Of a stretch of 64,000 nucleotides of DNA, positions 15,893-57,553 are shown in pieces (position 1 is the first letter of the stretch; the number at the start of each line of letters is the position of its first letter). The DNA lies in assembly GCA_037043015.1 (NCBI GenBank), contig CM073326.1, forward strand, positions 17,182,345 through 17,246,344, given 5' to 3'. The notes beneath the pieces are model-generated. The model did not search any database. It had not been told where the DNA came from and saw nothing but the letters and a program-made list of their open reading frames with translations. This stretch comes from Bryum argenteum (lineage: Eukaryota > Streptophyta > Bryopsida > Bryales > Bryaceae). The position numbers were made by a program, and so were the translations under genes.

Positions 15893-16828
15893 TGAGCATC
15901 TACACTCTATTCATGGGGCACCCGCCATCGTGAGCGGTGCGTCATCAGCTGTCGCCAGCGCGTTCAGACTGTCTGTGGTCTCCACCGTGTTCGTTCAGTG
16001 GCTATAGCTGAACTTAATTGGGACTTAAGTGGTTCGTTCAGTGGCTGTAGCTGGACTTAACTGGGACTTAAGTGGTTCGTTCAGTGGCTGTAGCTGGACT
16101 TAACTGGGACTTAAGTGGCAGTAGCAGTGCTCGTTCAGACGACACTGGCAGTTGGACGCGGTTGCTGAGGTATAAATACACGCCAGGGGCATTACGTTCT
16201 CATCCTCCCCCCATTCTTCTATCTTTTTTCTTTTCCCCCGATTTCTTGCTATGGCTCCCTAGCTTAGGAGCCTAGCAAGAATCAGGCAACAAAAATATTA
16301 AAATGGGGGACAGGCTCCGCCCAATTTTTTCGTAACACATCATAATCTGGGATCGCGCTCCTCCATCTAATCGTCGTGATCATTCATTAGCAGTGCTCAC
16401 CGTGTGGGGGTGTTTGAGTCATCTTGGGCGGCAGTGGTCTCTTGCGTTTATGTCTACACCGCGAACGCACCTAAGTGTCTTCTCGGTGCGTTCTAAACAT
16501 CAATTGTATTATCGATGCAGCCAATCGCTGTCAAATTTTCTAACGATTGGACTTTCGCCTTTCAACAACTAGCAAGATTGCATAGAGCCTGGCATCTAAG
16601 CTGTGTCTGAGCTTGAATGCAACTTCGCGACATGTACTAATGCTAGTATGTACGTATCAGTATCTGAAAGGTCAAAGAGGAGGAATGTTAGTCGCCAGAT
16701 AAGAGTCGAGTTTATGATCGACGTTCTTCAAAGGGGTTCACAAAACTGTTGCAAGACATGTTCGAGGGTACTGTACACATCATCTTAGATAACTACATAT
16801 AAGCAAAAAGAGCAATACAGCAAGAGTT
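15893..16828 (+). mobile_element. RepA repeat, copy 2 (3'-extended form)
   Basis: Same family as 11206-11967, starting 'tgagcatctacactctattc'. The upstream tandem unit here is a different 43-bp version, 'ttcgttcagtggctgtagct...cttaagtgg', present about three times (15988-16120). The TATA box is 'ggtataaatacacgccaggg'. This copy continues about 150 bp beyond the end of copy 1, through 'gtatcagtatctgaaaggtc' and 'gacgttcttcaaaggggttc'. It lies directly against the edge of the duplicated LdpA block. Confidence 0.75.
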
Positions 16829-16838
16829 GTAGGCTTGT

Positions 16839-19800
16839 CTACCTTGCACTCACACTTTTGAAAGGACCCACCAAGGAAGCTGCATCCTGTAAAGCAGCCA
16901 GCAACAAAGACGGATTGTGCTCCAACTTTGAACCTGGTGCCGCATCTGTAGAGTTTGTGAAGTTCTATTTTTCATGACAATTCTCCATCTTCTGGAGATA
17001 TTTGGCCACCACCTGTTTGCACATAAACGTAGAAACAGTAAGTATTTTATCAATGAGAAAGGATAAATATCATCATAAACCCTGAACCCTAGACCGGTCT
17101 CTTTCTGCAAACTCAATGCTTTGAGCACAACAAAGATGGACTCCCTTGTAATGCCTGGAATGGTTTGATTTACTTGTGTGTTCATTGAATCACCTCTTGG
17201 AACCTCACCACAAAATTACCATCCATGTGTTTGTATAAAGTGCACTCTTTTAAACTTCCCAAGACATAAGAACATACCTTTCGAGCATAACCACCATAGG
17301 CCACTCCAGCAATAGTTGCGTTGCTATGGCGAGGAGTTTGGAAGAGCCCTTGTCTTTGAAGAGCATCAAAGGTGTGGCTATTTGATCCACCAGCCAGCTG
17401 AAGATAACCTGATAGTCACCATGTGCCATTCCATAATACAGTGAATAATCTCCAATTTGCTCAATTCGAAACATTACATGCAAAACGTTGAAGATATACA
17501 GATGTGGGGTGAGAAACCTCAATAGTGTTGAGTTACTGATGTCCCTTTTGACATTCAGTATTATGCAGTGAGTAGTTAAACAATAATAGGGACTAGTAAA
17601 GTGATGCAATATGACAGCATACTAACCGCTCACTTTCTACTCTTGAACCATCCGTTTTTACATAATGAAGCGTTAATTGAGGTTAGTCACTAATGGAACC
17701 ATAGCAGTAGTACCTAGAGGACGATCCTGTGCGGCGGCAACTCTGGCAGCAAGAGCAACAGCTGCTCTGGTTGCACCTGCACCTGTGTCGCCACTCATCG
17801 GTCGACCATCCAACTACAAATCGCCCAAAGGAACACCATTACTATTGATCGAATAAAAAGAATTGCAAACAATTATCATGCTTCATGTTATTGTGAAATT
17901 CTACTGCGTAAAGTTGAACAGAGGTTACTACTTTCTTCACTTTTTGAGATGTGGAAGCTGTTCGAGGTTTTCTAATACCTGCCAGAGATTGAGGCCTTTG
18001 AAACTGGGTCTCAAGCTTTCGTACATTGCTGCCAACGTTGGAACCATACAGTCGCCCAAGTCTGGCACACTCACCTGCACAACATCGTTACTAAAACGCA
18101 GAAATCTAAGAAATGAAAACAAATACAGCGTAAAAAAGAAAGAAAACCATGTAGCCAATCTCTACTTCCATGTGTGCATAGTCAAAGCTCCTATCACATC
18201 TGCAATGTACTTTGAACATGCTATATTCGTGACACTGAAGGCGAGGAACATGGGTCACGCTTACAGCGATTAGTTTCAGCGACTGCAACACGTCGGAGAG
18301 GTCTCCCACAACTCTATGAAAATCTTCCAAATGCCTGAAAATGCACCAACCACAAAATGTGCAAAGATACAATTAGACCGACCCTTTCCATTCGGAACAA
18401 CGAATATCATATTCATTACACCTGAATTCCCATTTCTGAAGGTGCAATGCCAATCATGAACCCACATACCAATACACCTACATATGCCATTAGTGTGCTC
18501 CATGTACTGGAGGTTCAAATTTTTCCAAAAAATTTCCGAATTATTGAATATGATGCCCAAGGACCATGAGCATCTACGCTCTATTCACGGGGCACCCGAC
18601 ATCGTGAGCGGTGCGTCATCGGCTGTCGCCAGCGCGTTCAGACTGTCTGTGGTCCCCACCGTGTTCGTTCATTGGCTGTTGCTGCACTTAACTGTTCGTT
18701 CATTGGCTGTTGCTGCACTTAACTGTTCGTTCATTGGCTGTTGCTGCACTTAACTGTTCGTTCATTGGCTGTTGCTGCACTTAACTGTTCGTTCATTGGC
18801 TGTTGCTGCACTTAACTGGGACTTAAGTGGCAGTAGCAGTGTAGTAGCAGGGTATATATACAGGCCAGGGGGCATTACGCTCTCAGCCTCCCCCCATTCT
18901 TCTATCTTTTTTCCCTGACTTCTTGCTGTGGCTCCCTAGCTTGGGAGCCCAGCAACAAGCGGGGAACAAAATTATTAAAATGGGGGACAGGCTCCGCCCA
19001 ATTTTTTCGTAACACATCATAATCTGGAATCGCGCTCCTCAATCTAATCGTGATCATTCATTAGCAGGGCTCACCGTGTGGGGGGTATGTGAGCCATCCT
19101 GGGCGGCAGTGGTCTCTTGGTCTCTTGCGTTCATGTCTACGCCGCGAACGCACCTAAGTGCCTTCGCGGTGCGTTCTAAACATCAATTGTATTATCGGTG
19201 CAGCCAATCGCTGTCAAATCTATCTTCTAACGATTGGAGTTTCGCCTTTTAACAACTAGCAAGCCTGGCATCTAAGCTGTGTCTGAGCTTGAATGCAACT
19301 TCGCGACATATACTAATGCTAGTATGTACGAATTATTGAATATGGTGCCCAAGGACCAGGGATGCAAACCACAATGATCCACCAAGGGACCGAAAATCAA
19401 TAAAGAATGAGGAAAGTAACGTACCCTGCACCCGTGTGGATTTCAATAGCGTCGATGTCATTGTTGCTCAAAAGATCGCCAACAGCGTGCAAGTCCCGCA
19501 CATATGTCCTGGCATCTTCACGTACACATTAGATCATGAGCCTCCACCCTAAAGTCAGTCAGACCCTAGTACAATTGGACACTGATGATGATGAAAGGTG
19601 CTCACGGATAAGTCCCAATGGGCATATGGGTACGCAGCGTCCACATCCATAGCAGCGCTCTGTGATGACCCCACCCTGTAGCAACAATATTAAAAATTAT
19701 GTTTCTATCACACAGAAGGGAAAGGACGAACGAAGGAATCAGCATTGTTACCGACTGAAAACTTGAGGGTCCTGGTGTAGCCAAAGAGCTCGACTGAAGT

Positions 19801-33250: not shown

Positions 33251-34843
33251 CAGTGACCTTCAAAACTGTCCCAATGTTTGTACATGTTACATTCAAAAAA
33301 TAATGTAGGTAAGAGAAACTCATGGAATGGAATGTAGTAAATTTATTGAAATAGTACATACAATGTACTAATTGATTACAAAAATTCCAACAAAATTGAA
33401 GCGCTCAATGTGAAAGGAAAAAAACCTAAAGCTACTCTGTACATTGGTACACTTTTGAACGTCCAACATGGAAATTCCTCACCACTTTGTCCATTTTCCT
33501 CTGGATTTTAATACAGCTGCTATTCGTCTGGGCATTGATTCTATAAGTCTCTTGCAATCATCAACAGTGATAGAAGGGAATGTTTCTTCCACACGAGACC
33601 ATAATTCAAGTATCCCTTTTGGTGGTGTGTCATATCGATTCAATCTCCTTTTCAAAATTGCCCATAGATTTTCTATAGGATTCAAATCGAGACGAAAGAG
33701 GCCAAGATAAGACACCAAAAGGTTGCCTAGAAAACCATTGTTTCATACTATTACTTTGGTATGTATAGGTGCATTATCCTGTTGAAATATGACTCGATGG
33801 ATCTAAATTTTTTTTGAATTGTACCATGGAGATGCTCCTCCAAGATTTTTTGATAACCATGCCGATTGAGGCGACCTTCAATTCTACACATCATGCCAGG
33901 TCCATGTATACACATACATCCCCATATCATCACGTAACCACCACCATGCTTTACTTGATCGGAATAACGGTCCGCTCTGAAAGTTCCTGTGGATCACGAA
34001 CCCAACACCAAACTCTCCCATCTGAAGAAAATCTGTTAATTTTAGTCTCATCTGAGAATATCACGTGACTCTAGTCATCAATAGTATAGTGCTGATACTT
34101 TCTGGCAAATTCTAAGCGAGCCCTAATATTACTGCGTGACAAATGTGGTTTCTTTTCTTTCACATGCGATTGCAAACCTGCTCTACAAAGTCCACGGCGT
34201 ACAGTAACTTCACTGACTTGTACTCCAAAAACTTCTTGCACATGTTTAGTAGCTTCTCTTGCAGTAGACACCTTCCCTCTTGTTATACTAGTTACACAAG
34301 ACCGCTCCATTGCACTTGTCAACTTGCGTGGTCTACCTCCAACTAAAAGCTTTGCATCTGGAAAATGCTTCTTACGGAGCCTCGTGACACTTGATTTACC
34401 AACATGCAAAGAATTTGCTATCTCTCTCACACTACAACCTTTTTGAAGCAAAAGAGTATACCTTGTTGCTTCCCCAGGACAATGGTCTCACCATTTTCAC
34501 TTGTGAAGCTAAACACGAAAGAAACAAATATATGACGCAAGAAGAACAAATACACACAACAGAACACAAACCAAGCAATTCACAATGCATGTACACTTCA
34601 CTTGCTATGCATACAAGATTCACTCATATGTACTTTCAAAACTGTCCCAATGAAGAGAAAATATCTAGAGCTTCAATTCATGCACATACATGTAGAGACA
34701 AGTGGTAAGCCTTGCTCCTTGATTACCTTACTAATGATAGTATGTAACTAAATTGATGCCATGTCAGTCTAGCATGCAATCACTATGTGGTGACTCACCA
34801 AACTTTCAAATTATAAACATTGGGACACTTTTGAAGGTCACTG
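33251..34843. mobile_element. Tc1-type DNA transposon (1593 bp)
   Basis: Inverted ends of 29 bp with one mismatch: 'cagtgaccttcaaaactgtc' at the left, 'cagtgaccttcaaaagtgtc' complemented at the right, both continuing 'ccaatgttt'. Flanked by TA (33249-33250 and 34844-34845). The empty site is seen in the related repeat at about 41155-41173, where 'gatac' is uninterrupted. A second, inner pair of related sequences lies at about 33441-33462 and 34630-34651, in opposite orientation to the outer ends. The transposase on the minus strand is broken. Confidence 0.93.
33479..34451 (-). pseudogene. Tc1-type transposase, DD34E, inactivated
   Basis: N-terminal helix-turn-helix ('VREIANSLHVGKSSVTRL') and the 'GGRPRKLT' linker are intact up to an in-frame TAG at 34071-34073. 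The first catalytic Asp is in 'VIFSDETKIN' (about 34045). A frameshift follows near 33965, before 'MIWGCMCIHG'. The second Asp is in 'QQDNAPIHTK' (codon 33778-33776) and the Glu in 'LDLNPIENLW' (codon 33673-33671). The 102 bases between them give 34 codons, so DD34E, the Tc1 signature rather than the DD39D of plant mariners. A TGA lies between them. At least three lesions make this copy non-autonomous. Confidence 0.92.
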
Positions 34844-41086: not shown

Positions 41087-41355
41087 CCAACTATTGTGGG
41101 AGGTCCTTGGACCTTGTTGTATGGGTACCTCAAAGCCCTTTGGGGGATACTATGTCAAGTATCTTCAAGGCACTGGTAACTAGGCTAAAAACTAGGGAAG
41201 TTATAGTGTCCATCCTCGAGAGGGGGAAGTAGTAATGTCTTAATTTCCCCTTGTCCAGTGGCCATCGGGATATTAGCATTATGAACAGACACTTCATTCA
41301 CGCCGGCCCCTTAGAAAGGACTGGAGTTTCTATCTATCTATCTATCTATCTCTAC
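41087..41355 (+). repeat. SINE-like retroposon family, full-length copy
   Basis: About 265 bp starting 'ccacccaactattgtgggag' and ending 'ggactggagtttctatctat' with a (tatc)n tail. It matches the split copy at 33062-34925, a 5'-truncated copy at 31738-31845 and a partial one at 32745-32850. The MULE at 41356 is inserted at the end of its tail; the last bases ctatctctac form the target duplication. Confidence 0.65.
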
Positions 41356-41548
41356 GAGTGAAGCTAGGTCATGAGCCATGAGCAATGAGCATTGAGCGGT
41401 TAGCAGAAACTCTTGAGCGGTGAGCTTGGTATAAGACAAAATTTACGAAATATTCGGAAATGAAATAGGTTTTATGGCTACTTTCCAAAATATCATGTGT
41501 GGTTGTTAGCCTATTACCGTGGGAATAGTAGCCTAAAACCGTGAACCA
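41356..41548 (+). repeat. Left terminal inverted repeat of the MULE
   Basis: About 190 bp, roughly 70-75% similar to the complement of the right end in its outer 75 bp. It is rich in 'atgagc/ttgagc' words and followed by two 'tagcct.t.accgtg' motifs. Confidence 0.78.
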
Positions 41549-41906
41549 ATGCATCATGTACAAGTCATGCCACGGGTTTAGGTGCCATATTATAGAGGTG
41601 CCATATTATAGAGATTCAACATAAAGAGCCTCAAGAAAAAAAAACCCGTGTAAAGAAATTGTAGATTCAAAGTCAATAAAAGAGGACCTTAAGATACGAC
41701 TACACATATATGTTTCATTTCTTGAAACATGAGTAAGTAGTATAGACTATTATTTATGAAGCATAGGAGTCCTAAAACATGTTTCTCAATCAAATAGAAT
41801 ACTGTAGATGACAAAAACATGTGATAATTGAATATTTATATTCTATAAACGATACATATATTAAAGTAACACTATGTATGAAAATAAAATCAATTGGTAG
41901 AATCAA

Positions 41907-44900
41907 CTATATCGAATTTGATTGTAGTAGGTGGATGACCTCCCGATAGCTCCAAGTTGGTGCATGCATGAAGATATCCTTTGTGTAGTCGAGTTTGCAG
42001 TAATACCTAAGAAGATAATATAAATGCTTGCAATTCACCCATTTCCCTTTCTTTCCGAGAGAAGTTGTACTCATCCTAGTGAAGTCATGACAAGTACAAT
42101 ATGGAAAATTGCTGATGGAGACACGGTAGACATTATCTGTTGGAGCCGCAAGAGAAATAACCGCTCCATATCCAGGGTGAGGGACAATTGTGACTCCAAC
42201 AATGCTATATCCATCCATGAGAGCCGAACTCTCCCACTTGTTTCTGTGATCAGCATCAGGAGCCTGAGAACTTCGACGAACAAGTTTTCCATACCTAGTT
42301 GGCGCATGACTATCAAGATTCTCGGGAATATGAATCCCAGAGAGAGGAATCGGAAGATTAGGAATGGTTTTGAAAAGATTCCTTGGTGACAAGGCTTTTT
42401 TATTTCTTTCTAGTTGGAATTCAGCATCCTCTAGTGCAAGAAGTTCCTCCCGGGATAAGTTAGTACCAATCTGGATAGGCCACACCATAGGTACTGGCGG
42501 CCAGTCTTTTACAAAAAACTTCTTTTTTCCCATAACGCATCGCTTGATATCATCAGGACAGAACCAAAACTCCGTAAGCTCCAAGGTGTCTTTTCCGTAA
42601 GCTTTTTTCAGGCCACGATAAGTTGGAGCGCAAGTTGCTTGGCGGCCCTTGTTGATTTGTGCCTCACATGCCTTTCCGTATGTACCTGCATAGCTTGACA
42701 TTTCACCGGGATTTTGGATTGGTGCGAGCTATGTGCCTTTGGTTAGGATCACAATCACTCTCATGAACACCGTCACATGGGTCACCTCATATAACGGTGT
42801 ATTCGAGAGACTCTTCAATACGTCTTTCGTGTTGCCCGTGAAGAAGGACGAGGTACCGAGTAATTTACCTTATCCGGACGATGAGAGTCAAACTCGATCC
42901 GGGAGGTAAGTCGATTTCCTCTTTGTAGAGCCAAAAATCTCTGCTCCTTCCAAGCCAGAGTTTGTAAGGGGCAAGTCTTCGGCACCTGGAATAGTCTTCA
43001 TTACTTCAGCCAAAAGATTGGGATCACCACTTCGCATTGCTGCCTTCAATTTTAGGGTGTGTCGCTTGGTCCAGTCCCTCCTTTTCCACCCTTCACCCAC
43101 GATCTGTAGTTTGTTATCTGCATGAAAGCACGAATCATATCGTGTATGGTGGCCTCATAAGGACAAGTCATCTTGTTTCCTGATGCCCTCTTCATTGTAC
43201 TATGGACAGTCTCTGCAAGGTTGCATGTAGGAACCTTTGCTATCTCTTCCAAAGTTAGGTCCTGCAAAAAAGAAAGTGTTTTGTAAATCAAATGAGTACA
43301 CTTCATTCAAGAAAAAATAATATAGTTGTATGAATCAAGAGCTATAATTTCATTACCATCTGATATACTAAACTCACCATTTGAAATTCGCCACCTCACT
43401 GCTTGTATCGAAAGTGCCAGAATCCAAACCACTCTTGTAAGTGTGCCACACCATCTTCAGTAGCTGCACCAGATGATAACCACCAATTTTTGATGACGTG
43501 GAATTGAGTTTCAGCTTCCTCAAAACTCTTTGCATTCTTATAGGCTTGACATAGTTGCTTATGATGAGCTTGCATGGATGGTTTGATATACTTTTGTGTA
43601 TACTTATCCAAGTTGGCAGACCAATGATAAAGACAGGTTCGCTCCTTGTCTTTCATAGGAGTATTGCCGTCCCCTCCTCCATAAACCTTCCTCACTGCAA
43701 TCCAATTAGCTTGAGCACTATCTGCCATGAAGCCTTTGAGGTTGATACTCGAAACACCGTGCTCATGCATCACAGAGTTTAAGTTCTGCCAAAATAGAAT
43801 TTGAGCACTAGCATCTTCTGATTGCATGTCACAACATGCAATTGTCATGACCTTGCAATATTTGTTGTCATAGACATGGCAACCCATAGTCGTCCAATCA
43901 TTTAGTCGCTTAACATGATCAAACATGACCCACGAATCTTGTAAGTCTCCTCCATGTTGCATGCGCTTCACAAGGTCAAAACCACTACCTTCAAGTTGAA
44001 CTGACATCTTAAAGATGAAAACTTTGTCTTTTGTTTGGCCACGGAATCTATTCTCGTGAACAAAAATGAAAGGATTATTCACCTTCAAAGCTTGTATGCT
44101 ATCAATAGGCCCACGATCACTTCGAACGAGTCTCTTTGCACCTACAATATAATTTCTGCAATTGGGAGAGGCTAGTGTTTCATACTTATCCATAACACTT
44201 TCTAAAGATGGTCGCTTTTCTCCAGGTGTGGGGCTTTTGAAAAGAAAGTTTTCTAAAAACGCTCGACTTGCACCAATCATTATAGCAGAGTTCGTAGCGT
44301 TGGGCGTTTTAGAGACCTCTTTTGCCACGCACTGATATACTAAATCTATTGTCTCCCTACAAATTCCATCAGCCACAGGGTGCTTATGCTCGCCTAAGTG
44401 GATACATGCGCGACTCTCTATTGTAGGTGATGTTACATAGAAGATTACAGCGTTGCATGTCTGAAGGCAAACAGGAGGAGTATGGCAGACCTTGCATTGC
44501 AACGTTGACTTTGGAGGCGGATTTTGTCCAACTTCAAATCGTGTTGGTGTCTGACCAGTCCATTGCGTAGTATTGCATTGCCATGAGTTCCGCATCATGT
44601 ACTCACAAGCTTCATTAGAGCACTGTAGCTCACCAACGCAGGAGGATCGACGAAAGGATATGTTGTAATCATTCTGAATGTGAGTTATCCTTGTTGTGCA
44701 CCATGCATGTCCGTCGTGTTGCTTGTCCATCCCATCTAAACCTTTACCATATGTTTGAGGAACTCCTTGAGGCAATGAGGGTAGGATAAAGACTACGTTC
44801 CCATCATAACGTTGTGGCAAATAACTAACTTCTTCGACTCGAATGTTATTAAAATCTACACCACTAAGTTCAGATTTGGATCGTCTCCTTTTGGAGGTTA

Positions 44901-45447
44901 GAACCAACGCTTCCATCATAGTGATTGCACTTGAGGAGAGAACAGGATGTAAGGGTGGACGCCCACTAGACAAAGAAGAAGGATGAGAAGAAGTAGGCTT
45001 CGATGGGAGTTGTATTGTAGGAATTCTACTGGAAGAAGGATTGTTAGTAGGTACAGAAGAATGTACCGTAGGAAATGATTCGTCATCGGAGTCGCTGAGC
45101 AAAGTGATGATATTGTCCGAAGGCTCTATCTTCACAGAAACCGAAGTGGGTAAGTGGACAAAGGAAGTTGTTGAATGTAACAATTGAGACTCAAATTCCC
45201 TACCGAATACAGAGTACGTGCCAGATGAAACAATCCAAAACCCTCCAGTGGAATCAGTAGTTTTGTTTTCGAGCAAAGTCCCTATCGAAACACCGGACTC
45301 ATTAAACAAAATCTTTTCTACAAACAAAGATCCAGGAAGCAAATTAAATTTTGCCTCAAGCATGTGTTCATGAACAATAACCTTTCCATCTACACCTAAA
45401 GGGACTGTAAAAGGTAGTCCTACACCACGAAGACAGAAGGAAGCCAT
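41907..45447 (-). pseudogene. MULE-type transposase with zinc-finger-like and SWIM domains, decayed
   Basis: Main exon 45447-43396 (683 codons). Near residues 250-370 a cysteine/histidine-rich module ('SSCVGELQCSNEACEYM', 'CKVCHTPPVCLQTC', 'HLGEHKHPV') resembles WRKY/GCM-type fingers of MULE transposases. The MULE DDE core shows 'KGFMADSAQANW' (573-584) and 'DKERTCLYHWS'. A TGA at 43396-43398 replaces what should be Trp in the QWGG-type continuation; coding resumes to a GTGAGT donor, then 'DLTLEEIAKVPTCNLAE' (from about 43262). A frameshift near 43100 precedes 'GEGWKRRDWTKRHTLKL', and further breaks lie at about 42885 and 42710. The last piece (42701-41907) ends with a SWIM finger, C-x-C then 'GKWVNCKHLYYLL'. 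At least four lesions make it inactive in this copy. Confidence 0.85.
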
Positions 45448-45957
45448 TTTGAGAAGACCATGGAAGGATTAGAAGAGAATGATGAGAGAAGGTAGATTGA
45501 GTATTAATAGATTGTCTACCCCTCGGAGTTCGCATGAGTACATAGAATTCAAAAAGATTAAGAAAAATTTTAACGTACATAAAGTAGGTGAGTTTTTTAA
45601 AATAACGTAGTGGACATTATATTGCAGTCGTTTTTAGAGTCGCCAAGAATTAATGTTACATATCATGGTAGTTGTATTGACGGCACGGACAGAGTATTTG
45701 AATTATAATCATATAACAAGAAAATCAAATAAAAATTATTTGCTTTTATGACAAAAGGGTATGTACTATACAGAATGGAAGATATGGTTTCGTAAATGCA
45801 ATTAAGGCGTTTATGGTTGTTTGAAATTAGAAGGGTAGAGGTGGCGTGCGCATTGATGAAAATGTTGCGGCAATGAAAACCATTTAAGTATTTGTATTAG
45901 AAGAGAAGCTCGAACAGAACATGTCTGGAAGTTTAAACTAATCGCCAACCAGTCCAA
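45448..45957. promoter_or_regulatory. Divergent promoter region inside the MULE
   Basis: The 510 bp between the transposase ATG (minus, 45447) and the first plus-strand ATG of the methyltransferase-like gene (45958). AT-rich, no open frame. As the only spacer between two head-to-head genes of one element it is the expected shared promoter; no TATA box was assigned. Confidence 0.45.
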
Positions 45958-46779
45958 ATGCTAGACATTCGAACACCTCTATTGGCAGCGAGAGACGGGA
46001 GTAGAAAAAAAAAACGGAGTGCATTCCGCTTTAGTAGTAGAAGAGAGCTTTTGAAATCACGGCTAAGAAGGGTTAGAAGTCGTATAGACGAGAATGTAGT
46101 AGAGAGTGTTCGTGCTTTAACATTTGAAGATTGCGGTGTGGAGCTTTTCAAAGAAACCCAAGTTCTATCAGTTGCGCCTGCATTGCTGCTGTATCGACTT
46201 GTTGGAATGCGGAGTTTAGATCATCAACCGTCACTTGGTGAGAGCGATGGCGAGAGCGAATCAAAGGTATTAGCGACTTGAATCCGAATTAGTTTGAAGA
46301 GATAGGAAAGTGGAGAATTTCAAGAGTTAGTAAAGTAAATAACATTTAGGGTTGAAAGGGGTAGTAGCCGTCATGGCATTAGGGTTTGAGGTTTTTGTGC
46401 AAGGAAGTTGTTAGTTTTGTTTGGGGCTCTTTTTTTTGCTGGTGTACGTGTGTTGAGCTCTTTTTTTGCTGGTTTGCATTCGTTGTAGATGGAGAACAAC
46501 CTGGAGATGGCGATTGAAACAATGAGTGGAGGAGTTGCTGACAGTGGCGGCGAAGGACTTAGAGGACGAGGTGGCCGTGGAAGGGCTGCGCGAGGTAGTC
46601 GAGGACGAGGAGGTCGAGGAGGTCGAGGAGCTCATGATGGGGTAGAAGAAACGGTCCAAGAAAGTAATGACGACCTGGAGATCATCTCTCCAACACCTCA
46701 GCGGTGGTGAGATTTACGGATTACAATTTGTTTAGCAATTTCGGACTTAGTAGAATGGGGAATTTAGAAATCTGATTTC

Positions 46780-47350
46780 CTGTCCGCGTGTGCGCGGACA
46801 ATAGTTCGGCTTCCTCTAGTCCTCACGATTTTGGGGGTTTAGTGTAATTCTGCGTTTTGAGTGATGTTTGTTTTGCACCGCAAAATGTTGTTTAGTGAAG
46901 AAAGTTAGAGTTTTGGTGCTGGAATTGATGCTTGAAACGAATGTGGTTCTTTGTCGCGTCACGCGACCGCCGAAATGCGAATAATATGTTGTTTCAAACC
47001 GACGTAGGAAGAGTCCGCGTGCACGCGGCTCGTCCAAATGATAAAATGCGAACGTTTTGGTTTGTGAGATCGACGTTGGGATGGTCCGCGTGCACGCGGA
47101 CTGTCGAAATCGCGAACATTCTGGTTTTTGAGACGGATGTCGGGACGGTCCGCGTGCACGTGGACTGCCGAAATTGCGAAATTTTGGTTTCTGAGATCGA
47201 CGTCGGGACGGTCGCGTCAGCACGCGATTTGCGAAATTGCGAAATTTTGGTTTCGAGATCGGCTTGTCGGGACGGTCGCGTGCACTGGATTGGCCCAAAT
47301 TGCGATCATTCAGTTTTGAGACGGGCGTTGAGATCGTCGCGCGCGCACGT
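46780..47350. repeat. CpG-rich palindromic tandem array in intron 2 of the methyltransferase-like gene
   Basis: About seven degenerate units with a 60-72 bp period, each centred on a palindrome of the type gtccgcgtg/cacgcggac (perfect 18-bp palindrome at 47084-47101) followed by 'gccgaaattgcgaaatttt' and 'ggtttctgagatcgacgtcg'. A related palindrome, gtccgcgtgtgcgcggac, sits just upstream at 46783-46800. The array is far richer in CpG than its surroundings. A 186-codon minus-strand frame across it is a repeat by-product. Confidence 0.8.
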
Positions 47351-50300
47351 GACTGTCGGACGTAATAGGGTTTCAATTTTTTTTGTAATGGAGTAATGCT
47401 GTTTTGCAGAATTAGTTCTTGGTCCGCTTGTAAGCTCGGGTAGCAAACTTCTCTTGCTGCACCCTATAAGTGCAAAAAAACTTCTGTTAGTTTCGGGGTC
47501 AATTGTCATGCGCTATGTACGTTTCTTCTTTGATATGTTAATATCATTTGTATAATTAATTTTTTGCAATTAGGACTTTCAATGTGTAAGCAATTTTTTA
47601 CTGTAGTTTATATTTGCAGGTGAGTTCAACTCATAGGCCATTGTCAACACTTGAGGCCATTCCCCCCGCCGAATCTGTTGTACCTACGGAGGTCCTCCCT
47701 CAACCGGAACTTCCCGATGGAATCAACAACGACTTGAGGAGAGTTATCTTCGAAAAACACAAAAGAAGGACAGCCGTGCTCTTCTTTCGAGCTTGACTTT
47801 AGCTCGAATTCCGGTACCTCTCTGTCGCATGATCTCCATGCCAAAAGTACGCCCGGTTAGTGAGGTCGAGATTCAGAAATTGGAGAATGAGTTTGTGCAT
47901 GGTTATCGTGAGGGCGACCGTATTTTCTATGTTTCTGCGTATGATTACAGAGGTAGATCAAAGGCCATTTCGGAGGAGGAAATGGAGGCATGGGATCCAT
48001 ATTGGATCGAGGCAAATGAGATGTTTGAAGAGCTCCTCTCTAGGCAAGTGCATCTACAAGATCTCCACGGTAAGATGTTGTATGTGTGGGATGGCAATCA
48101 CCGCCACAGAGCTTGGTGGAGGCACATCAACATGCACCATGCAGATGAACAAGATTGGCACTATTCTGTTGATACGTTTATTATCGATCCAAGGGAGAAT
48201 GCTGGAGATGTTTTGAATGCAATGAATGACATCAATTGGTAAGTTTATTTCTACTTTGCAATTGTTTTTTCTTACAATTATTTTGTATCTTTCACTTCAT
48301 CAATTATCATTCTATTTGTGCAGGTCCACTGAAAATGACCATGTAAAGACGAGCCTTCCAGCAAGACTTCAACGGATCCGATCTTTTGGAGGACTCAAGC
48401 TCACTGACTTCAAAAATCTACTTACAGAAGAGGAATATAAATCCTGTGAGAAATCGAAAAACAGAAATGTCACGATCCCGACTTGGTATCCATTGACTCA
48501 GAAAGTCTTCATCGCTTTTCTTTATCGTGTAAGTTTCTACCTTTCTCCTATTTCATTAGATCTATTCAAATTCTTAAGTTCAAGTTTTTATTTCATGACT
48601 AGTTACTCAGATTTGTGCGGAGAGAGAGATTGCAAACAAGATCGGATGCGCCTTCCGTGAATATTACGAGAAGACTCCCAAGGATCAACAAAATCCTCAG
48701 GGAGTTTGGGACATGATGACAAAAGCTGCAACCGACCTTGTTGATTCCATTCAAAACAAGGACTTTGATAAGTACCTTGCAGTAGCTAATCCAAATAATG
48801 GAGAAGCTTTTTTCACACAGGTTTGTTTCCCACGTTTTTTTTAAAGAACTTCTATCAACTTCATTTCCTAATATAAATCTGATATATTTTTCTTACTTTT
48901 GCAGATAAACGAACATTACAGTTTATATTCTAAGCCAGAAATGACTATTGACAAACTGCGATTAATCGCAACAACTCCTGTCCAACCACAATTCAAAGCA
49001 CTCTGGTTGACATGGTGGAATGCTCCCCCGACAATGCGTGCAGCGTACAAATTTCCTACACCGGATTCCAAGATTCCACTTGCAACGTGGATAATCAAGC
49101 CATCTTTTTGAGCTGAGGTAATTTTTATATTCAACTTTCATTCTTTATAGTTTTATTGTCTTACTTTTATACTGAAACATGTACTTTGATATTTGCAGCT
49201 TGAAGACCAACTTCTTCGAGAATTTGAAAAAATTCGCGAGAAGTTGGAACCGATTGATTGGAAAGCCTTTGGTGGAATCAAGACTCGATCTCAATATGTT
49301 GAGACCTACCGGATCCTACTATGGGATAAGGCATTCTTGCCTTTTTTTAATCCAAGAGCAGAACCTGTGTACAAGAAAGAAACCAAGTTTACAAAGTATC
49401 CAGGCACAGCTTCCGTTGTTCAGCGAGTTTTATACAGGTAAGATTAATTCCATTGTTCTATACTATCTTTTCTATCTATTTCAAAATTAATAATGTTACT
49501 ATTTCTCCAAGTACATTGACTTCAGTATTTTATTTAATTTCTTCAGATACATCAAAAGGGAGCTCATTGGAAAGAAAGCCATTGGCGAGAATTCCATGCC
49601 TGCGTACTTCTCATCATTTCTAGATAAGACCTCCTCCATTTGCTTCTACACACCTGCTCAACAGAAGAAGTTCAACGACAATCACCTGGCTGCCGGTTGT
49701 TGGTACCTCGAATGTCCTCCTACATTTACACCTCTTGAGGAGGTTAATGAGAGGACAAACATCAATGGTGGAGTTCCCATGCCTCTTACGGAAGAGGAAG
49801 CCGAAGATGAAGATACGGATCTACTTGCTCAAGGACCATCAAAGGAGAGAAAGACACGACCTACCAGGAACAGAGCTTCCTCCGCAAATGTCCTACTGTC
49901 TTCTATTCCTCGTCCAACACCATCTGAGGTATCTGGTCCTGCTACTCACGATTTTGATGGCACGCAAGACAGTGCTCATACTTTGACACAGGCAACTCAG
50001 CTGCATCTGCAAAAGATGAAGAAACACTTGCAGCCTCATGGTGCAAGTGCTTCCACGAATACTTCATCTACTTCCGTATACAACTTCATTCAGAATGTGT
50101 CTATGTTAGATCTCACTTTGCAGGGAGCTAACGGAGATGAAGGGAGAGATCCTCGTTGGATAGCACTTCATAGATTTATAGATGTGGTAAGCTTCTATCT
50201 TGTGCTTGTTCTACTTCATTTATTTTTCAGTATTTCTCCTGCTTTGTAGAAATATATGACTTTATTGTTTTGAATAACAGGTTGGAGCAGGCCGCACACG

Positions 50301-51033
50301 TCGAGTGAGCTCTGAAATTTGCCCTCATAAGGGAATTGACTTACTCATAGCAGACATACCTGAAGGCTTACCAGTCCCTTCTATCTCTTCACCGCCCTCA
50401 ATTATCCCGTCTTGGAACAACATAGACAAAAATTGTGTAGAGTCAATTTTTGCATTTGCAGATGCATTTCTTCACGATGATGCTGCCCTACTTCTATTTC
50501 ACTGCTTTGATTCCACCATTTCTGCTGATATTGTTGGGTGGGCCTCGGAGTTCAACTTTGTTTTGAAAAAAAAATGGTGGGGTGTCCAAGATCTTCGCCT
50601 TACTTCTCCAACGGACAAGACAAGTGAGGTATTATATTGTATATCTTTCACGATACTTTTTTTTCCAATCTTCTTCTACTTAGGACTAATGCTCTATTCA
50701 ACTTTCATTTTTTTTGTAGACCAATCGATTTTGCATCAAACTATACATCCGTGGAGGATCGATTGTATCACGGTTTTCATTCCGAGAGAGTTCTGATTTC
50801 TCTGCAACTGTTACAAGGCTTGAGAAATGTGATTGCATTCTCAACTTCACATCTGAAGAATCTCAGCTTATGAATGGATCAGTTCCATGGAGAGGTCCTC
50901 GGGAGAAAAACTTATCATTCATGCAAGGCTTGATTGAAGTACTTTCAAAGCCTGGAGATATTATTTTAGATTGGTTTGCATCTACAGGTGATACTTTATT
51001 TTATCTTCAGTTTTTATTAACTTATGGTATACC

Positions 51034-51521
51034 TGTAACAGGGCAAGAACTAGATTTTTGTGTTTGCTAGAAAAGTAGATAGATAGTTGAAACCATTTTA
51101 GGAGTTTTTAGAAAATTTTAGAATTTGAGGTAGATGGCCTATGTGGGACCTACCATAGAAGCTTCGAGAAGGTGGGGCCCACCTCTAGAGTCTTCTAGAA
51201 GGGCGGTTATCTAGGTGGGGCCCACCTCTAGGACCTTCCAGAAAGTTCCATGGTGGGGCCCGCCATTGGAACATTCTAGAAAGTTCCAAGGGCGGTTAGG
51301 CAGAGTATAAATAGAACTGGCCGGGGCCATTTGGAGGCATTCGGTCAGGTACGCCTTAGTCCCTCTCTCTCAGTAAAGTTTGGTTTGTACTTTGCTTCTT
51401 TAGTTCTGCTTTGTTCTGTTCAGTTCAAGTTTATTCGGTCTTGTTTAGTCCGGTTTTCTCAGATCTTGTTAAGTTAGCAGTGTTTGAGTTGTGACCAAAG
51501 AGAGAATTCGGTCCCGTTTCA
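51034..51521 (+). repeat. 5' LTR
   Basis: Begins 'tgtaacagggcaagaactag', ends 'attcggtcccgtttca'. A TATA box 'gagtataaatagaactgg' at about 51304 marks the promoter. GGGCCCACC-type words are repeated in U3. Confidence 0.95.
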
Positions 51522-51522
51522 T

Positions 51523-51534
51523 TGGTATCAGAGC
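51523..51534 (+). promoter_or_regulatory. Primer binding site, initiator Met tRNA
   Basis: tggtatcagagc, one base after the 5' LTR, is the standard plant initiator-methionine tRNA complement used to prime reverse transcription. Confidence 0.92.
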
Positions 51535-51704
51535 GAGTGTCAGTCTATCCTTACGTTAGGTGCTATTAGCAAGAGTCTACTTGAGAGTCAGTCATTGTGG
51601 TTTCATCAAGTCTTGTCCTTGGATCCACTTGGAGTTCCTTTCAAGGATTTGGCTAGAACGAGAGAAGGCGTCACGGTAGCAGAGGTCGTCGGAAGAATTG
51701 CATC

Positions 51705-52530
51705 ATGGGAGAAATGGCGGAACCTACTCATATGGAGACTAAGATTCAGCACCTACTAGACCAGATTGCTGCATTACAAGGACAAGCGGACGCTTCTAGA
51801 GCTAGAGAATTGACAACTGCGAGGCTGAAGTTGAGCAAGCCTGAAACATATTCAGGAACTTCAAGACAAGATGATGTATCTCAATGGCTTTTCAAAGATG
51901 CGACAATATCTCCAACTGTCCCAGGCGAACTCAACCGACGGAATTATATATGCAATTGACTATTTGAGGGTGCAGCTGACCATTTGGTGGCGACTTCGAG
52001 CTCAAAACTATGGAGCTCAAGGCGGATTTCAAAATTGGGAGGAATTTGAGACCGAGCTCACAAACCAGTTTCGGCCCATCAATGCAGAGAAGTTAGCGCG
52101 TGATCGTTGGCCACCTTGACACAAATGCCTAAGGTCAAGATAAAGAGTATGTCACCCGGTTCAAATCCATATGTCTCCAAATACCCAATGTTTCGGAGGG
52201 AGAGATGATGGATCGATTTGTTCGAGGATTGAAGCCGATCGTTCAACGAGAAGTGAAATTAAGAGACCCTCAAACATTTGAGGAGGCGGTTAGGATTGCA
52301 GAAAGAGTTGATGACATAAACTTTAGAAATCGTGGAGTACGACCTGCAGTATGGAACCCTATGCCACCACCTACTATGGTAGCCCAACAACCGACGCCAA
52401 TGGAGATTGACGCCCTACAAGGACCATTGACGCCACTTGACAGACGACAATTATTGGCACGGAAGGGATTGTGCTTTCTCTCGTCGGGAGTCGAGGCCAT
52501 CGATTGAGAGTGTCCAAAACGTCGAAGTCA
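51705..52530 (+). pseudogene. Gag region of the chromovirus, frameshifted
   Basis: Three overlapping frames carry one gag: 'METKIQHLLDQIAALQGQ' at the N-terminus, then 'NWEEFETELTNQFRP', then 'DRFVRGLKPIVQREV' and 'TFEEAVRIAERVDD', the retrotransposon gag signature. At least two frame changes separate them. No CCHC zinc knuckle was found in what remains. Confidence 0.85.
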
Positions 52531-52734
52531 GTGCCATCAAACCAAGGCGGATCCAAGGAACCTCGAGGTGACCAAGATGATGAAGGAATGGAGCAGGGAA
52601 ACGGGCTCCCGATAAGGGCACCGAGGACCAATATCGGGATAGTTGTTGTCTCTCGAGTCAAACAACATGGCCTCGGGCAACACTCAAAAAGGTCGGTGAT
52701 ATGTCTCACGGTCGACTTAGAAGACAACCGTGTC

Positions 52735-55700
52735 GAGTACTAGTGGATTGCGGTTCTACGGAGAATTGCATCTCGACCGCAATTGCCAACCGACTTGGGA
52801 TCAAGACTAAGGTGATCACCGGAGGGACTATATACCATGCAGACGATCGGAAAATGATTTAAGTGAGACATGTGAAGAAGAGACCTTGAGATTGTGTGAT
52901 GCCTATGCACTACGAGGAAAATTTAAGGTAACAAAGCTCGGATATGATGTTATCCAGGAATGCCGTGGTTGGAGGCGGAAATAAGCAGATTGGTGGCCGA
53001 CAAGAAGAACCATCTCTTTTAACGAAGGTGGGCGCAAGATAATTCTTCATGCTTCAACATCAAGTGGATTGAAGAAACGACATGGACAACTAAAGGCATA
53101 TTGGTGGGGATGGCCTTCATGAAGAAACAGATCGATTTAAAGCAGCCCGGTGTATGTGGTAGTTCCAAATATTGCTTCAATAGTAGACAAGAGAGCCGAA
53201 GGAGCAGAACGAGTTGAGCAACTTATCAGCGAGTTCCGAGATGTCTTTCCCGCCGACTTACCTAGTGGTTTACCACCTGATCGAGGTGCTCCCTTCCACA
53301 TAGACTTAATGCCAGAAGATAAACCAGAAATCACCAATTTATCGCCTAGCACCAAACGAGCTTGAGGAGCTGAGGAAGACGTTGGACGAGCTTTTGGAGA
53401 AGGGCCTCATTCGAGAAAGCACATCGCCATGGGGAGCACCTGTCCTTTTTGCACCCAAAAAGGATGGTGGATTGCGGCTATGCATCGATTATCGGGGCCT
53501 TAATAAGCAGACCATCAAAAATGCTTATCCACTCCTACGTGTGGATGACCTTCTTGATCAACTTCGAGGCGCAACCATTTTTAGCAAGCTAGATCTTGAA
53601 GTGATATCTTGGCGGATACCAATTGCAAAAGAGGATATTGAAAAACAAAGATTTCGTGACGCGCTATGGACATTTTGAGTGGCTCGTTCGCCTTTTTGGT
53701 CTCACCAATGCCCTGACTTCCTTTATGGGTCACATGAACAGGTTGTTCGGGACCTTTTGGACAAGTGTGTAGTTGTTTTCATTGACGACATTTTGATCTA
53801 TAGTAAAACCCCGGAAGAGCATGACCAACATCTACGGAAGGTGCTACGTCGGTTACGGGATAGTCACTTCTATTGCAAGCAATCAAAGTGTGAACTTTGG
53901 AAGTCCGAGGTCACCTTTTTGGGGCATGTAGTATCATTCGAGTGTGTGTACATGGAACAAGCTAAGGTGAATGCGGTGAAAGGATGGCCAACTCCCAAGG
54001 ATGTTTCGAAGTTCGTTCTTTCTTAGGCCTCGCCGGATACTATCGTCGTTTTGTTCGGCGGTTTTGCGCACATTCTTTGCTCCTCCGACAAATCTATTGG
54101 AGAAGGGCGCTCCATTTGAGTGGAAACTACAACAACAAGGCGCTTTCAATAATTTGAAGGAGGCACTCACTTCGCTCCAGTCCGCAACCATATGATCCTC
54201 GACTTTCCGCAGACGGTTGACATTGACGCTCCGACTTTGCTATAGGCGCGGTCCTCCAACAAGACTTGGTAGGGGCCTTCAACCGGTGGCATATGAGTCA
54301 CGCAAACTTAAGAGGGCAGAGCGCAACTATTCTCGTGACGCGTGATCGGGAACAACTAGCAATTGTACATGCTAGCAAAGTATGGCGGCATTATCTATTG
54401 GGGAAACTCGTGACAATTCGGATCGATCATCGGCCCTTACTACATGATCTGCATTTAGAAAATATGAAATCGAGACACCACATTTGGGAAGAACGATTCT
54501 AAAATTGTTTGATATTCAACTTCAAGACAAGCAAGGGCGACAACATATTGTGCCAGACGCTTTATCTCGGAGACCGGATCCAAATCAATCGGAGGACACG
54601 AGGGAGATTGCTACCATTAGTAGTATTGTTTCGGATCTAACCAGGAGGAGAGAATGGAAGGAAGCCACCTACCGGGATGCTTACTTCACAATGGTGACTG
54701 ATCGAGTAGAGGTAGGTGATGTGCAATATCAAGATTACAACCTCGTTGACGGCCTCCTCTATTTTAAGAAACGGGTTTATGTACCTAACGATGCTAAACT
54801 TCGAACCCGCATACTTCAAGAAGGGCATGACATTCCTATCTCTGGACATCTCGGACGTGAGAAGACCTTAGAACGGATTTCTAGAACATGGTTTTGGGTG
54901 GGCTTGGATCGTGATGTTCGAGCTTTTGTGCGTTCCTGTGAGCTATGCCAACGGAACAAGGCACGCAATACCGCACCTCTTGGACTGCTGCAGCCGATTC
55001 CACTACCTACGGTACGATGGGAACAAGTAACCATGGATCTCATTACTTGTTTGCCACGGACGCATCGTAATCACACTGCGGTTGCTGTCTTTGTGGACCG
55101 CCTTTCGAAGCAAATTCATTTGGCTGCGGTACGCTCCGATATTGATGCCCCAACACTTGCACGAGTCTTCTTCGACACTGTCTTCCGTCATCATGGATTG
55201 CCTCGTGTCATTATCTCAGATCGGGATCCGCGCTTCACAGGGAGTTTCTGGCAAGCACTATTCAAGCTTCTCGGCACACGACTTGCTATGTCCACGACCT
55301 TTCATCCCGGGATGGATGGATGACGAGAGAGCGTGCTAACCGGACCTTGGAGGATATGCTGCGGGCGTTTGTGGCAATTCACCACAACGACTGGGATGAG
55401 TATCTGACCCCTTTGGAGTTCGCCTATAATGATAGTTCCCAAGCAAGCACGGGTCATTCACCATTCTTTCTTAACGCTGGTCAGCACCCGATTACGCCGG
55501 CAACGCTCCACCGCCCCATCAACACCAACAACCCTACAACGGAGGAGTTTATACAACGACTAACATCGGCGTTGCAAGAGGCTCGACGAAATGCTCTCAT
55601 CGCACGTAATCGACAAAAAACAATACGCAGATAACCACCGCAACATAAGACCTTTCGAGAAGGTGACTTGGTTCTCGCTCTCAAATGCCAACCTTCCGTT

Positions 55701-56115
55701 AGCTACATCGACTCAAGTCCGTAAACTTGCACCCGGTGGATTGGACCTTTCCGAATCTCTACGGTCATATCCGATGTTGTATACCGCCTCGAGCTTCCGC
55801 CACATATCCACATCCATCCAGTTTTTTTCATATCTCGCACTCAAAGAATTTCATACATCAATCGGAGCGCTTTCGTGCCGACATCGCGCCTCCGCCGCCA
55901 CCGGTAGTGATTGAAGACCAGGAGGAATATGAAGTGGATCGCATTTTGGAACACCGCTCTTCTTCGTCGTGGCAATGGACGTCCGCAACTACAATACAAA
56001 GTCCGATGGAAAGGTTATCCCATCCACGATGCAACATGGGAGCCCGTTCACAACCTTACCCATTGTCAAGAAACCATTTGGAGATATCATCAGGAGCGAA
56101 ACGAGGACGTTCCGC
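52735..56115 (+). pseudogene. Pol region of the chromovirus: PR-RT-RNaseH-IN-chromodomain, frameshifted
   Basis: Protease active site LVDCGSTEN at about 52740. Reverse transcriptase: '[20 protein letters not shown]' (about 53475) and catalytic 'VVVFIDDILIYSK' (about 53770). RNase H remnants with 'TILVTRDREQLAIVHA' (about 54320) and 'IRIDHRPL'. Integrase: His/Cys finger 'GHLGREKTLERI...CELCQRNKA' (54840-54965), then D,D with 'TMDLITCLPR' and 'VIISDRDPRFTG'. A C-terminal chromodomain, 'LQYKVRWKGYPIHDATWEP' (about 55990-56050), targets such elements to chromatin marks. A TGA at 55321 and several frame changes inactivate it. Confidence 0.92.
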
Positions 56116-56116
56116 A

Positions 56117-56135
56117 TTAGCGGAGGGGGCTTAAT
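56117..56135 (+). promoter_or_regulatory. Polypurine tract
   Basis: tagcggagggggcttaat directly precedes the 3' LTR, the expected plus-strand primer. Confidence 0.75.
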
Positions 56136-56624
56136 TGTAACAGGGCAAGAACTAGATTTTTGTGTTTCTTTAGAAAAGTAGATAGATAGTTGAAACCATT
56201 TTAGGAGTTTTTAGAAAATTTTAGAATTTGAGGTAGATGGCCTATGTGGGACCCACCATAGAAGCTTCGAGAAGGTGGGGCCCACCTCTAGAGTCTTCTA
56301 GAAGGGCGGTTATCTAGGTGGGGCCCACCTCTAGGACCTTCCAGAAAGTTCCATTGTGGGGCCCGCCATTGGAACATTCTAGAAAGTTCCAAGGGCGGTT
56401 AGGCAGAGTATAAATAGAACTGGCCGGGGCCATTTGGAGGCATTCGGTCAGGTACGCCTTAGTCCCTCTCTCTCAGTAAAGTTTGGTTTGTACTTTGCTT
56501 CTTTAGTTCTGCTTTGTTCTGTTCAGTTCAAGTTTATTCGGTCTTGTTTAGTCCGGTTTTCTCAGATCTTGTTAGGTTAGCAGTGTTTGAGTTGTGACCA
56601 AAGAGAGAATTCGGTCCCGTTTCA
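56136..56624 (+). repeat. 3' LTR
   Basis: Near-identical to the 5' LTR; visible differences include an altered stretch after 'ttttgtgttt', ccc for cct in 'gggacc(c/t)acc', 'ccattgtgg' for 'ccatggtgg' and 'gttaggtta' for 'gttaagtta'. Confidence 0.95.
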
Positions 56625-57329
56625 ATACCAGTTTCTTTATCTTCTTATACATGTTTTTGGTTTTTGTTTTCAGGAGCCTCGGTACGTGCTTGTTACAATA
56701 TTAGACGTCACATTGCAGCCTTTGAAGGTGACGCCAACATATTCGAGGCTCTCCTTGCACCATTAAGCAACCCTCCTCCACCACAACAGAAAGTCCAGAG
56801 ACTTCGTGTATCCGACAAACCTGAAGAGCCTCCTCAAAAGCGACAGCGTTCCATTCGCTTTTGTGCGTAAGTTGTATACTTGTAAATTTTATGCATTTAT
56901 GTATATGCTGTCATTTTTATTTTATTTTTCTTTGTTTTTCATTTGTATATAACTAACTTTATACTACATTGTGTTTCAGAGCTTCATCGGAGGCCCTCTT
57001 GACCAGTCCCCATGATACTTTTACTTTACCTTGTTATGCACAAGATATGGCTATGGCTTTAGCAGAAGCCCCCTCACCTCCTTTAGTTTGGAAGCGACGT
57101 ACTTATAATCCTAAAGTGCATAGTTACATAGACATACAGGCTGAGGAGGACAATACCTTCACTACCTCTTCAGTTGAGGGTAGTTCTGACTCCAACATAT
57201 CTATGTAGTATTACATATGTGCACATTTTGCTTTGATTTCTTATTAATTTCATTATATACACAGTGATACTAATGTATGTGAATTCTAATTTTGATCAAT
57301 CTTATTCAAAAATTGAACCCATATACCAA

Positions 57330-57543
57330 ACCACGGTTATAGGCTACCTTCCCAAATAATAACTGTCTTGAATGTATTTCTATATGAAATTTTTGGCTCT
57401 TACACTTGAACATCATTTTATAATATAATCATTTTACACGGTCATAGGTCCATAGTTGGTTACAATACTATGCGTTACTGCTCAAGAGTTTATTGCTCAT
57501 TGCTCATTGCTCATTGCTTATGGCTTAAGACTTAGCACCCCTC
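57330..57543 (-). repeat. Right terminal inverted repeat of the MULE
   Basis: Complement of the left end: on the minus strand it starts 'gaggggtgctaagtcttaag' and includes 'caatgagcaatgagcaatga', 'aaactcttgagcagtaacgc' and, further in, 'ggtagcctataaccgtgg'. Confidence 0.78.
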
Positions 57544-57553
57544 CTATCTCTAC

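Follow-up and report, generated by a model that had tools for sequence, protein, structure and literature searches.

Does one transposon in the genome of the moss Bryum argenteum carry both a transposase gene of a Mutator-like element (MULE) and a partner gene that joins a ParB-like region to a DNA-methyltransferase-like domain, and what would such a partner do? A first-pass annotation raised this question for a stretch of 64,000 nucleotides (contig CM073326.1 of assembly GCA_037043015.1, forward-strand positions 17,182,345 to 17,246,344), which we call the window and whose own numbering is used below. We found that the window holds a two-gene DNA transposon of MULE type, present in the moss genome in many diverged families. 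The transposase gene on the minus strand and the partner gene on the plus strand are arranged divergently inside one element, which measures about 10.6 kb once a nested retrotransposon is subtracted. Its parts, apart from the partner exons, are:

41346..41355, target-site duplication ctatctctac (10 bp), left copy
41356..57543, whole DNA transposon, with ends identical in sibling copies
41356..41425, plus strand, left terminal inverted repeat, with four GAGC at 7-bp steps from 41373 (element position 18) and two more inward
41907..43261, minus strand, transposase exon 2, frame broken, with a C-terminal SWIM-type CxC...CxH motif
43378..45447, minus strand, transposase exon 1, with a Cys/His-rich region, a VKIEP and TLLSDSDDE stretch and a catalytic-domain-like D...D...C..H region, frame broken near the end
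46972..47357, tandem array with a unit of about 64 bp in partner intron 1, holding perfect palindromes of 14-18 bp (CCGCGTGCACGCGG / GTCCGCGTGCACGCGGAC)
51034..56624, plus strand, nested Ty3/gypsy-like long terminal repeat (LTR) retrotransposon in partner intron 9, with a 5-bp duplication ATACC
57490..57543, minus strand, right terminal inverted repeat, with three GAGC at 7-bp steps (57495-57512)
57544..57553, target-site duplication ctatctctac (10 bp), right copy

The evidence for a single element comes from its other copies. When the partner gene was searched as DNA against the host genome (258.8 Mb in 25 contigs), 36 matches came back. Of these, 18, counting the one in the window, span the query almost completely, with 83-100% identity. 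We extended ten of the 17 near-complete matches other than the window to the full element. All ten siblings are colinear with window positions 41356-51036 and 56627-57543 and hold both genes in the same order. Their left ends match throughout, while right ends and duplications were located in nine, each with a duplication of its own: agttctaacc, taggataagc, atattgcagt, tgtacaagta, ggttctcaac and tctactatag (10 bp), gttgaaaac and atcacaaat (9 bp), and ttcattatat(c), of 10-11 bp with an ambiguous first base. Sibling C3_25546k has lost its right end and carries a deletion in partner intron 1 that extends into exon 2, and C6_16270k lacks an internal piece of the transposase. In the window itself the termini are imperfect inverted repeats with 53-nt arms, 77% complementary when three flanking bases are counted in. 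The left 10-mer overlaps a CTAT microsatellite and would be weak evidence if taken alone; we accept the duplication as real because the sibling copies settle the ambiguity of the left end.

Two diverged elements were also read end to end. One, c2 (within C2:22438400-22456300), has a 10-bp duplication CCGTTGCCGC, and the other, c4 (within C4:6062900-6079900), has a 9-bp duplication GTGCCAACT. Both have inverted repeats (matches of 39 and 48 nt, respectively) and a divergent partner gene. Their transposase is one long open exon of 738 and 807 codons, respectively, from stop to stop, and transposase identity among the window, c4 and c2 is 41-59%. The exon order of the partner gene is also kept in six further loci (L045-L050). 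The first-pass description of one element, bounded by a 10-bp duplication and inverted termini and enclosing both genes, is thus reproduced at the window ends, in the siblings and in c2 and c4. We also examined the outcome that would have spoken against it, with the two genes in separate elements or the termini repeated nowhere else, and the copies do not show it.

How common is the pair? A genome search with the ParB-like exon turned up 1,077 candidates at first look, and one with a second query 1,204; 150 of each were scored. Pooled with the 20 best partner-gene matches, these lists hold at least 224 distinct ParB-exon places. The transposase exon gave 1,514 first-look candidates, of which 65 were scored; the resulting 70 matches were merged to 63 loci. 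By the first ParB-exon list alone, a ParB exon lies divergently within 20 kb of 30 of the 63, while two have one in another orientation and 31 have none. With all three lists pooled the divergent partner is found at 34/63 within 20 kb, against a chance expectation of 0.55, and at 38/63 within 30 kb. Locus C5:932781, unpaired in the lists, holds the partner when its sequence is read, which brings the count to at least 35. The first 100 listed genomic matches to a four-fold run of the terminal heptamers described below fall into 51 arrays; by extrapolation the genome would hold about 1,000, at most two per element. Taken together, the transposon group numbers hundreds of copies, perhaps about a thousand. 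Over 2.29 kb, loci L059 and L050 share 98.6% identity, which points to recent movement or duplication. In the protein collection we found 80 relatives of the transposase exon and 278 of the ParB exon; among the 120 of the latter that were listed, P0123 comes from the moss Ceratodon purpureus. P0025 and P0133 lie on contigs of equal length (674,632 bases), which are probably one and the same.

These counts bear on the possibility that two unrelated elements became nested by chance, or that a host gene was captured once by a MULE, as in Pack-MULEs. A retrotransposon does sit inside the window copy, and the scored lists show no divergent partner for 28 of the 63 transposase loci, two of these having a ParB exon in another orientation. 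However, the order and the ends are identical in all ten siblings, the pair recurs in the two diverged elements, the partner is found at many places and is under purifying selection (see below), and the only list-unpaired locus that was checked does hold it. The nested retrotransposon is not part of the transposon, being absent from all ten extended siblings. Chance nesting is ruled out by the sibling copies, and we consider it extremely improbable. The LTRs of the nested retrotransposon are 99% identical over the 300 nt compared, and its reading frames look broken.

We use the label 'MULE-type' because of the duplication length, the ends and the SWIM motif. The duplication is of MULE size (8-11 bp) in 12 of 13 elements (the window, nine of the ten siblings, c2 and c4), and a SWIM-type CxC...CxH motif follows the catalytic-domain-like region in all three transposases, with Pfam SWIM at E 0.7-1.3, below its cut-off. 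Among 16 transposases, Pfam MULE PF10551 matched none and Transposase_mut PF00872 matched one at E 0.18; a PDB profile search with the transposase gave nothing relevant. Columns D563, D593, D598, D629, C658 and H661 are invariant in all 16, their catalytic assignment being made by eye. At 45075-45135 on the minus strand the window transposase also has VK[IV]EP and, after it, a hydrophobic-SDSDD stretch. Of the 16 transposases, 12 carry a VKxE[PSHA]-like site, mostly near an acidic stretch of SDSDD type, and we take the two to resemble SUMO-acceptor and SUMO-interacting motifs. Maize MuDR is likewise a MULE that encodes a further gene beside its transposase, and it makes 9-bp duplications; mudrB is not known to be related to the partner, and the two genes are convergent in MuDR whereas they are divergent here.

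The partner gene, described earlier with 12 exons, has 11 in our model, all on the plus strand:

46489..46706, plus strand, exon 1, RGG-rich, with DLEIISP
47620..48238, plus strand, exon 2, ParB-like region with the GNHR motif; frameshift near 47760-47775 in the window copy
48325..48528, plus strand, exon 3
48617..48820, plus strand, exon 4, start uncertain in the window copy
48905..49117, plus strand, exon 5, with a TGA stop near 49109 in the window copy
49199..49437, plus strand, exon 6
49546..50185, plus strand, exon 7, acidic linker
50281..50628, plus strand, exon 8, methyltransferase motif IV region (DLLIADIPEG)
50720..50986, plus strand, exon 9, PWRGPREK and the start of motif I (DWFASTG)
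56673..56867, plus strand, exon 10, remainder of the motif I region, RRHIAAFEGD
56980..57208, plus strand, exon 11 and stop

The protein has about 1,120 residues (about 1119 aa as read), in the order RGG-rich start, GNHR region, linker and methyltransferase-like domain. By hand reading the window gene is broken, with two extra bases at the exon 1 donor, the exon 2 frameshift and the exon 5 stop. Automatic GT-AG splicing of the window and ten siblings gave a reading in 9 of the 11 and none in two; all nine contain 14-70 stops, counts that are too high since some junctions were misplaced. Elsewhere, c4 is apparently shifted in exon 10, L045 is broken at motif IV, L048 just past it, and L046 has an insert. 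The whole protein had no match in the protein collection at E up to 0.01, probably because the collection calls such genes exon by exon, as a single ParB exon does find its relatives there.

The partner exons are kept under purifying selection across diverged elements. We compared nonsynonymous (dN) with synonymous (dS) substitution. In the ParB-like exon of nine sequences dS was finite in 12 of 36 pairs, and the five pairs with dS below 1 gave dN/dS of 0.067-0.143. The motif-IV exon was compared in six of the nine, L045, L046 and L048 being left out because of breaks or reach; dS was below 1 in three pairs, which gave 0.151, 0.142 and 0.000, the last at a dS of 0.05. The motif-I exon of the same six is less constrained, with values of 0.15-0.47 in four pairs whose dS exceeds 1, and of 0.29 at a dS of 0.03 between c4 and L049. 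For c4 (L043/L044) against L049, dS was 0.66 in the ParB exon and 0.03-0.05 in the methyltransferase exons; the elements therefore recombine and exchange gene halves.

The C-terminus had been described as a permuted S-adenosylmethionine (SAM)-methyltransferase-like domain, and our comparisons place it in the beta class. The window partner as read matched DpnA at E 2.8e-6 and PF01555 (N6_N4_Mtase) at E 6.5e-5 with 23.4 bits, below the curated cut-off of 26.7; apart from PF01555, the Pfam scan gave only two insignificant families. A profile of five sequences (window, c2, L047, L049 and L050) is colinear with CcrM residues 21-252 across the domain at E 7.6e-7, and matched DpnA at E 2.6e-5. All five aligned proteins matched PF01555, the hidden Markov model against which the first-pass annotation proposed to check the domain (best E 2.4e-7), and a PHROG methyltransferase (best E 5.8e-11). 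Motif I reads DWxxxTG, and both it and the PWRGxREK stretch are strongly conserved in the aligned partners.

The ParB-like label fared less well. GxHR-type motifs are the active-site signature of the ParB/sulfiredoxin group. The window protein reads WDGNHRHRAW around the GNHR motif, and in 50 sequences N and H are invariant and G and R are at least 90% conserved. PHROG 1033, a ParB-like partition protein, matched this region marginally, in 5/9 sequences with a limit of E 1 (best 0.0037) and in 4/50 with a limit of E 0.05 (best 0.0021). The searches for the family were negative: ParBc PF02195, the other model proposed for the check, matched 0/9 and 0/50 ParB-exon sequences, NCBIfam ParB matched 0/50, and PDB profile searches with the exon gave no ParB match. 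An hhalign comparison with seven aligned phage ParBs (P1, P7, 48ST307, K243, N15, PY54 and PCAh2) gave a probability below 1%; these are partition ParBs, perhaps the wrong branch, and a ParB fold is still compatible with the failure. As a possible bridge, fusions of ParB and methylase in phages were considered and set aside, since no N-terminal ParB-like part was visible in the three methylases read (25 listed matches, six regions). Viral contigs held no relative of the transposase or of the ParB exon.

What, then, would the partner do? Very probably it is an accessory factor that serves the element and is needed by it. As the best overall explanation, to which we give about an even chance, its N-terminal part would bind short repeated sites of the element: the NNNGAGC heptamers at its ends, the tandem arrays lying between the genes, or both. 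Its SAM-fold domain would modify the bound DNA or read its modification, and the element would thereby escape silencing by the host or reset it, as VANDAL elements do by means of VANC. VANC itself is not known to be a methyltransferase or a ParB-like protein. An anti-silencing or marking role, taken by itself, falls only just short of an even chance, and actual methylation of bases is rather doubtful. We favour sequence-specific anti-silencing or marking because the VANC targets of Arabidopsis VANDAL MULEs likewise form tandem repeats in introns, and also in upstream regions, where they differ among related elements (PMC5735166). The regular pairing of the genes, the purifying selection on the partner and, as given below, the heptamer runs at the element ends with their genome-wide abundance and the tandem arrays inside the window family, c2 and c4 count for this reading. 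VANDAL elements resemble ours in being MULEs with extra genes and intron tandem repeats, with VANC acting sequence-specifically (PMC5735166). The earlier proposal of a transposon with its own DNA-modification or modification-reading factor thus holds for the two genes in one element and the methyltransferase-like domain, while marking, anti-silencing and choice of targets are kept here as possible roles.

METTL14 is a methyltransferase-fold protein that acts as a non-catalytic partner, and the domain here may likewise be catalytically dead, a reader or scaffold whose part is to recruit host factors or to block them. In all five aligned partners motif IV, which aligns with DPPY of CcrM, reads D[AIV]PE[NG] instead of the canonical (D/N/S)PP(Y/F/W). 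The canonical form, with its aromatic residue as in DPPY, SPPY or DPPW, occurs in none of the five; outside the alignment, L048 reads NAPEN ahead of its frameshift. In the rotifer N4CMT, changing SPPY into APPA abolishes N4-methylcytosine (4mC) activity (PMC8885841). Nevertheless, all five keep motif I and, in motif IV, the Asp and the second Pro, and the protein may have an unusual catalytic motif that serves another substrate. We regard a dead domain as a sizeable possibility, below an even chance; it overlaps both with the explanation favoured above and with a purely transpositional role.

Such a role would make the partner a transposition factor and not an epigenetic one, an end-binding, nicking or target-choosing subunit whose ParB-like part acts on DNA ends and whose methyltransferase fold is structural. 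The terminal repeats hold heptamers that would suit a factor of the transpososome: in c2 and c4, GAGC recurs 5-7 times at 7-bp steps from element position 18 at both ends. In the window family the left end has four such repeats from position 18 in all 11 copies, while the right end has runs of three, two or none. The right ends of L049 and L050 have five; those of L045-L048 show no GAGC run, and these sequences may stop short of the element end. Within the 64-kb window heptamer runs occur at the two element ends only, and genome-wide a four-fold run gave 909+1056 matches versus 26+19 for the reversed pattern. The altered motif IV also suits a transposition factor, and in Bce_0392, a ParB-methylase of bacteria, the ParB domain nicks DNA (PMC5512222). 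However, it may be the transposase that binds the heptamers, and the strong conservation of motif I and PWRGxREK is as expected if SAM binding matters. We hold a transposition factor to be rather unlikely.

The other candidate sites for a binding partner, the tandem arrays, lie between transposase exon 1 and partner exon 2 in the window family, c2 and c4. Their units differ, being 64 bp in the window family, 122, 265 and 401 bp in c2, and 117 and 234 bp in c4. The 14-bp palindrome core is present in 10 of the 11 window-family copies and the 18-bp form in 8, neither is found in C2_15731k, and both are absent from c2 and c4.

Several observations weigh against a partner that binds its own element and modifies or reads the DNA. 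The altered motif IV suggests that catalysis may be lost, and the ParB homology of the GNHR region is not established. A general parS-like site was rejected: perfect palindromes of at least 14 bp number three in the window element, equal to the highest of 50 shuffles (mean 0.62), c2 and c4 have one apiece against shuffle means of 1.26 and 0.86, and the palindromes above are confined to the window family. Selection on the transposase is not measurable, since dS was saturated in all three pairs of its exon. Finally, in the window family transition rates are 0.083 at CTG, 0.036 at CCG and 0.031 at CAG versus 0.012 at CHH and 0.026 at CG (H is any base except G), so that transitions at CHG are 2.5 to 7 times the CHH rate; deletions are 0.012 at CTG and CAG versus 0.002 at CHH. 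Past methylation or sequencing or assembly error at methylated sites would each account for this excess. Such change is expected if the copies were methylated and silenced despite their partner gene, though the partner genes of these copies are broken.

Other repeats and fragments lie in the window. A Tc1/mariner-type transposase fragment is found at 34071-34487 on the minus strand (HTH_Tnp_Tc3_2, E 4e-14); Tc1-like elements have been described in moss (PMC4054914). About 2.5 kb of sequence occurs twice, at 9477-12000 and 16826-19333, about 7.36 kb apart, with the compared pieces 87-100% identical, and each copy holds a 31-bp tandem array. At 429-2557 lies a long array of 64-nt tandem units, for which blastn against the transposon's own 64-bp array gave no match. 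Elsewhere in the host genome there are 90 chlorophyll-binding gene matches, in keeping with a green plant; after a two-domain LHCI entry (9vfj), the light-harvesting protein is closest to chains of 8htu and 7xqp, which are moss structures. Clusters of weak matches lie at C5:8.16-8.41 Mb, C5:14.73-14.76 Mb and C2:25.06-25.09 Mb, with many open frames of about 230-250 aa; perhaps they represent an expansion of early light-induced proteins (ELIP), as in desiccation-tolerant plants.

The first-pass annotation knew of no description of this combination of genes. That statement is superseded by the Sola1-1_Ec32 transposon of the brown alga Ectocarpus, which carries a gene with ParB-like and N4/N6 methyltransferase parts and has green and red algal parallels (PMC12477816). 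The likeness extends to a large element and to an accessory protein of 1104 aa, against about 1119 aa here, with ParB-like and amino-methyltransferase domains. Judged by the description, the layout and the methyltransferase part correspond; the ParB part is weak here. Sola1-1_Ec32 differs in belonging to the Sola1 superfamily and in being one described family, whereas the moss element is of MULE type, with hundreds of copies and diverged families. For algae, then, this kind of gene has been published before. What the moss element adds is another type of transposase, a host among the land plants, the copy number, the heptamers in the termini, an odd motif IV that is conserved, and the selection. 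As far as our searches reach, we found no ParB-methyltransferase gene in MULEs or mosses in the literature; the available parts of PMC12695648, on N6-methyladenine (6mA) across eukaryotes, do not mention Physcomitrium, land plants or ParB, and those of PMC7466625, on active Physcomitrium transposons, do not mention MULE, Mutator or methyltransferase.

Two other systems are comparable. Retrotransposons of Symbiodinium and charophytes carry captured DNA methyltransferases (DNMTs) with Ka/Ks below 0.2, and so share an element-borne methyltransferase(-like) gene under purifying selection; those are C5 enzymes of host origin in retrotransposons, whereas the partner has a beta-class amino-methyltransferase fold in a DNA transposon (PMC5890265). 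Bdelloid N4CMT is also a bacterial-type amino-methyltransferase in a eukaryote that is tied to transposons and tandem repeats. In contrast to the partner, it is a host gene with an SPPY motif and a chromodomain, helps to silence transposons and is not transposon-borne (PMC8885841).

On the broadest view, which we put forward tentatively from sequence comparison, a major group of land-plant DNA transposons would encode its own sequence-specific DNA-modifying or -reading protein, with D[IVA]PEN as its unusual catalytic motif and aimed at the end heptamers and at fast-changing internal tandem arrays, a bacterial-style self-marking within plant chromatin that opposes CHG silencing. The conserved non-canonical motif IV raises the question of what the methyltransferase-like fold does. 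If the partner does modify or read the DNA of its element, tractable plants would allow private epigenetic marks on transposons to be tested, and with them 4mC, 6mA or a further mark at the element ends. The recurrence of the same kind of gene across superfamilies, in Sola1 of a brown alga, in the MULE type here and in the red and green algae cited, would mean that the module gives transposons a general advantage.

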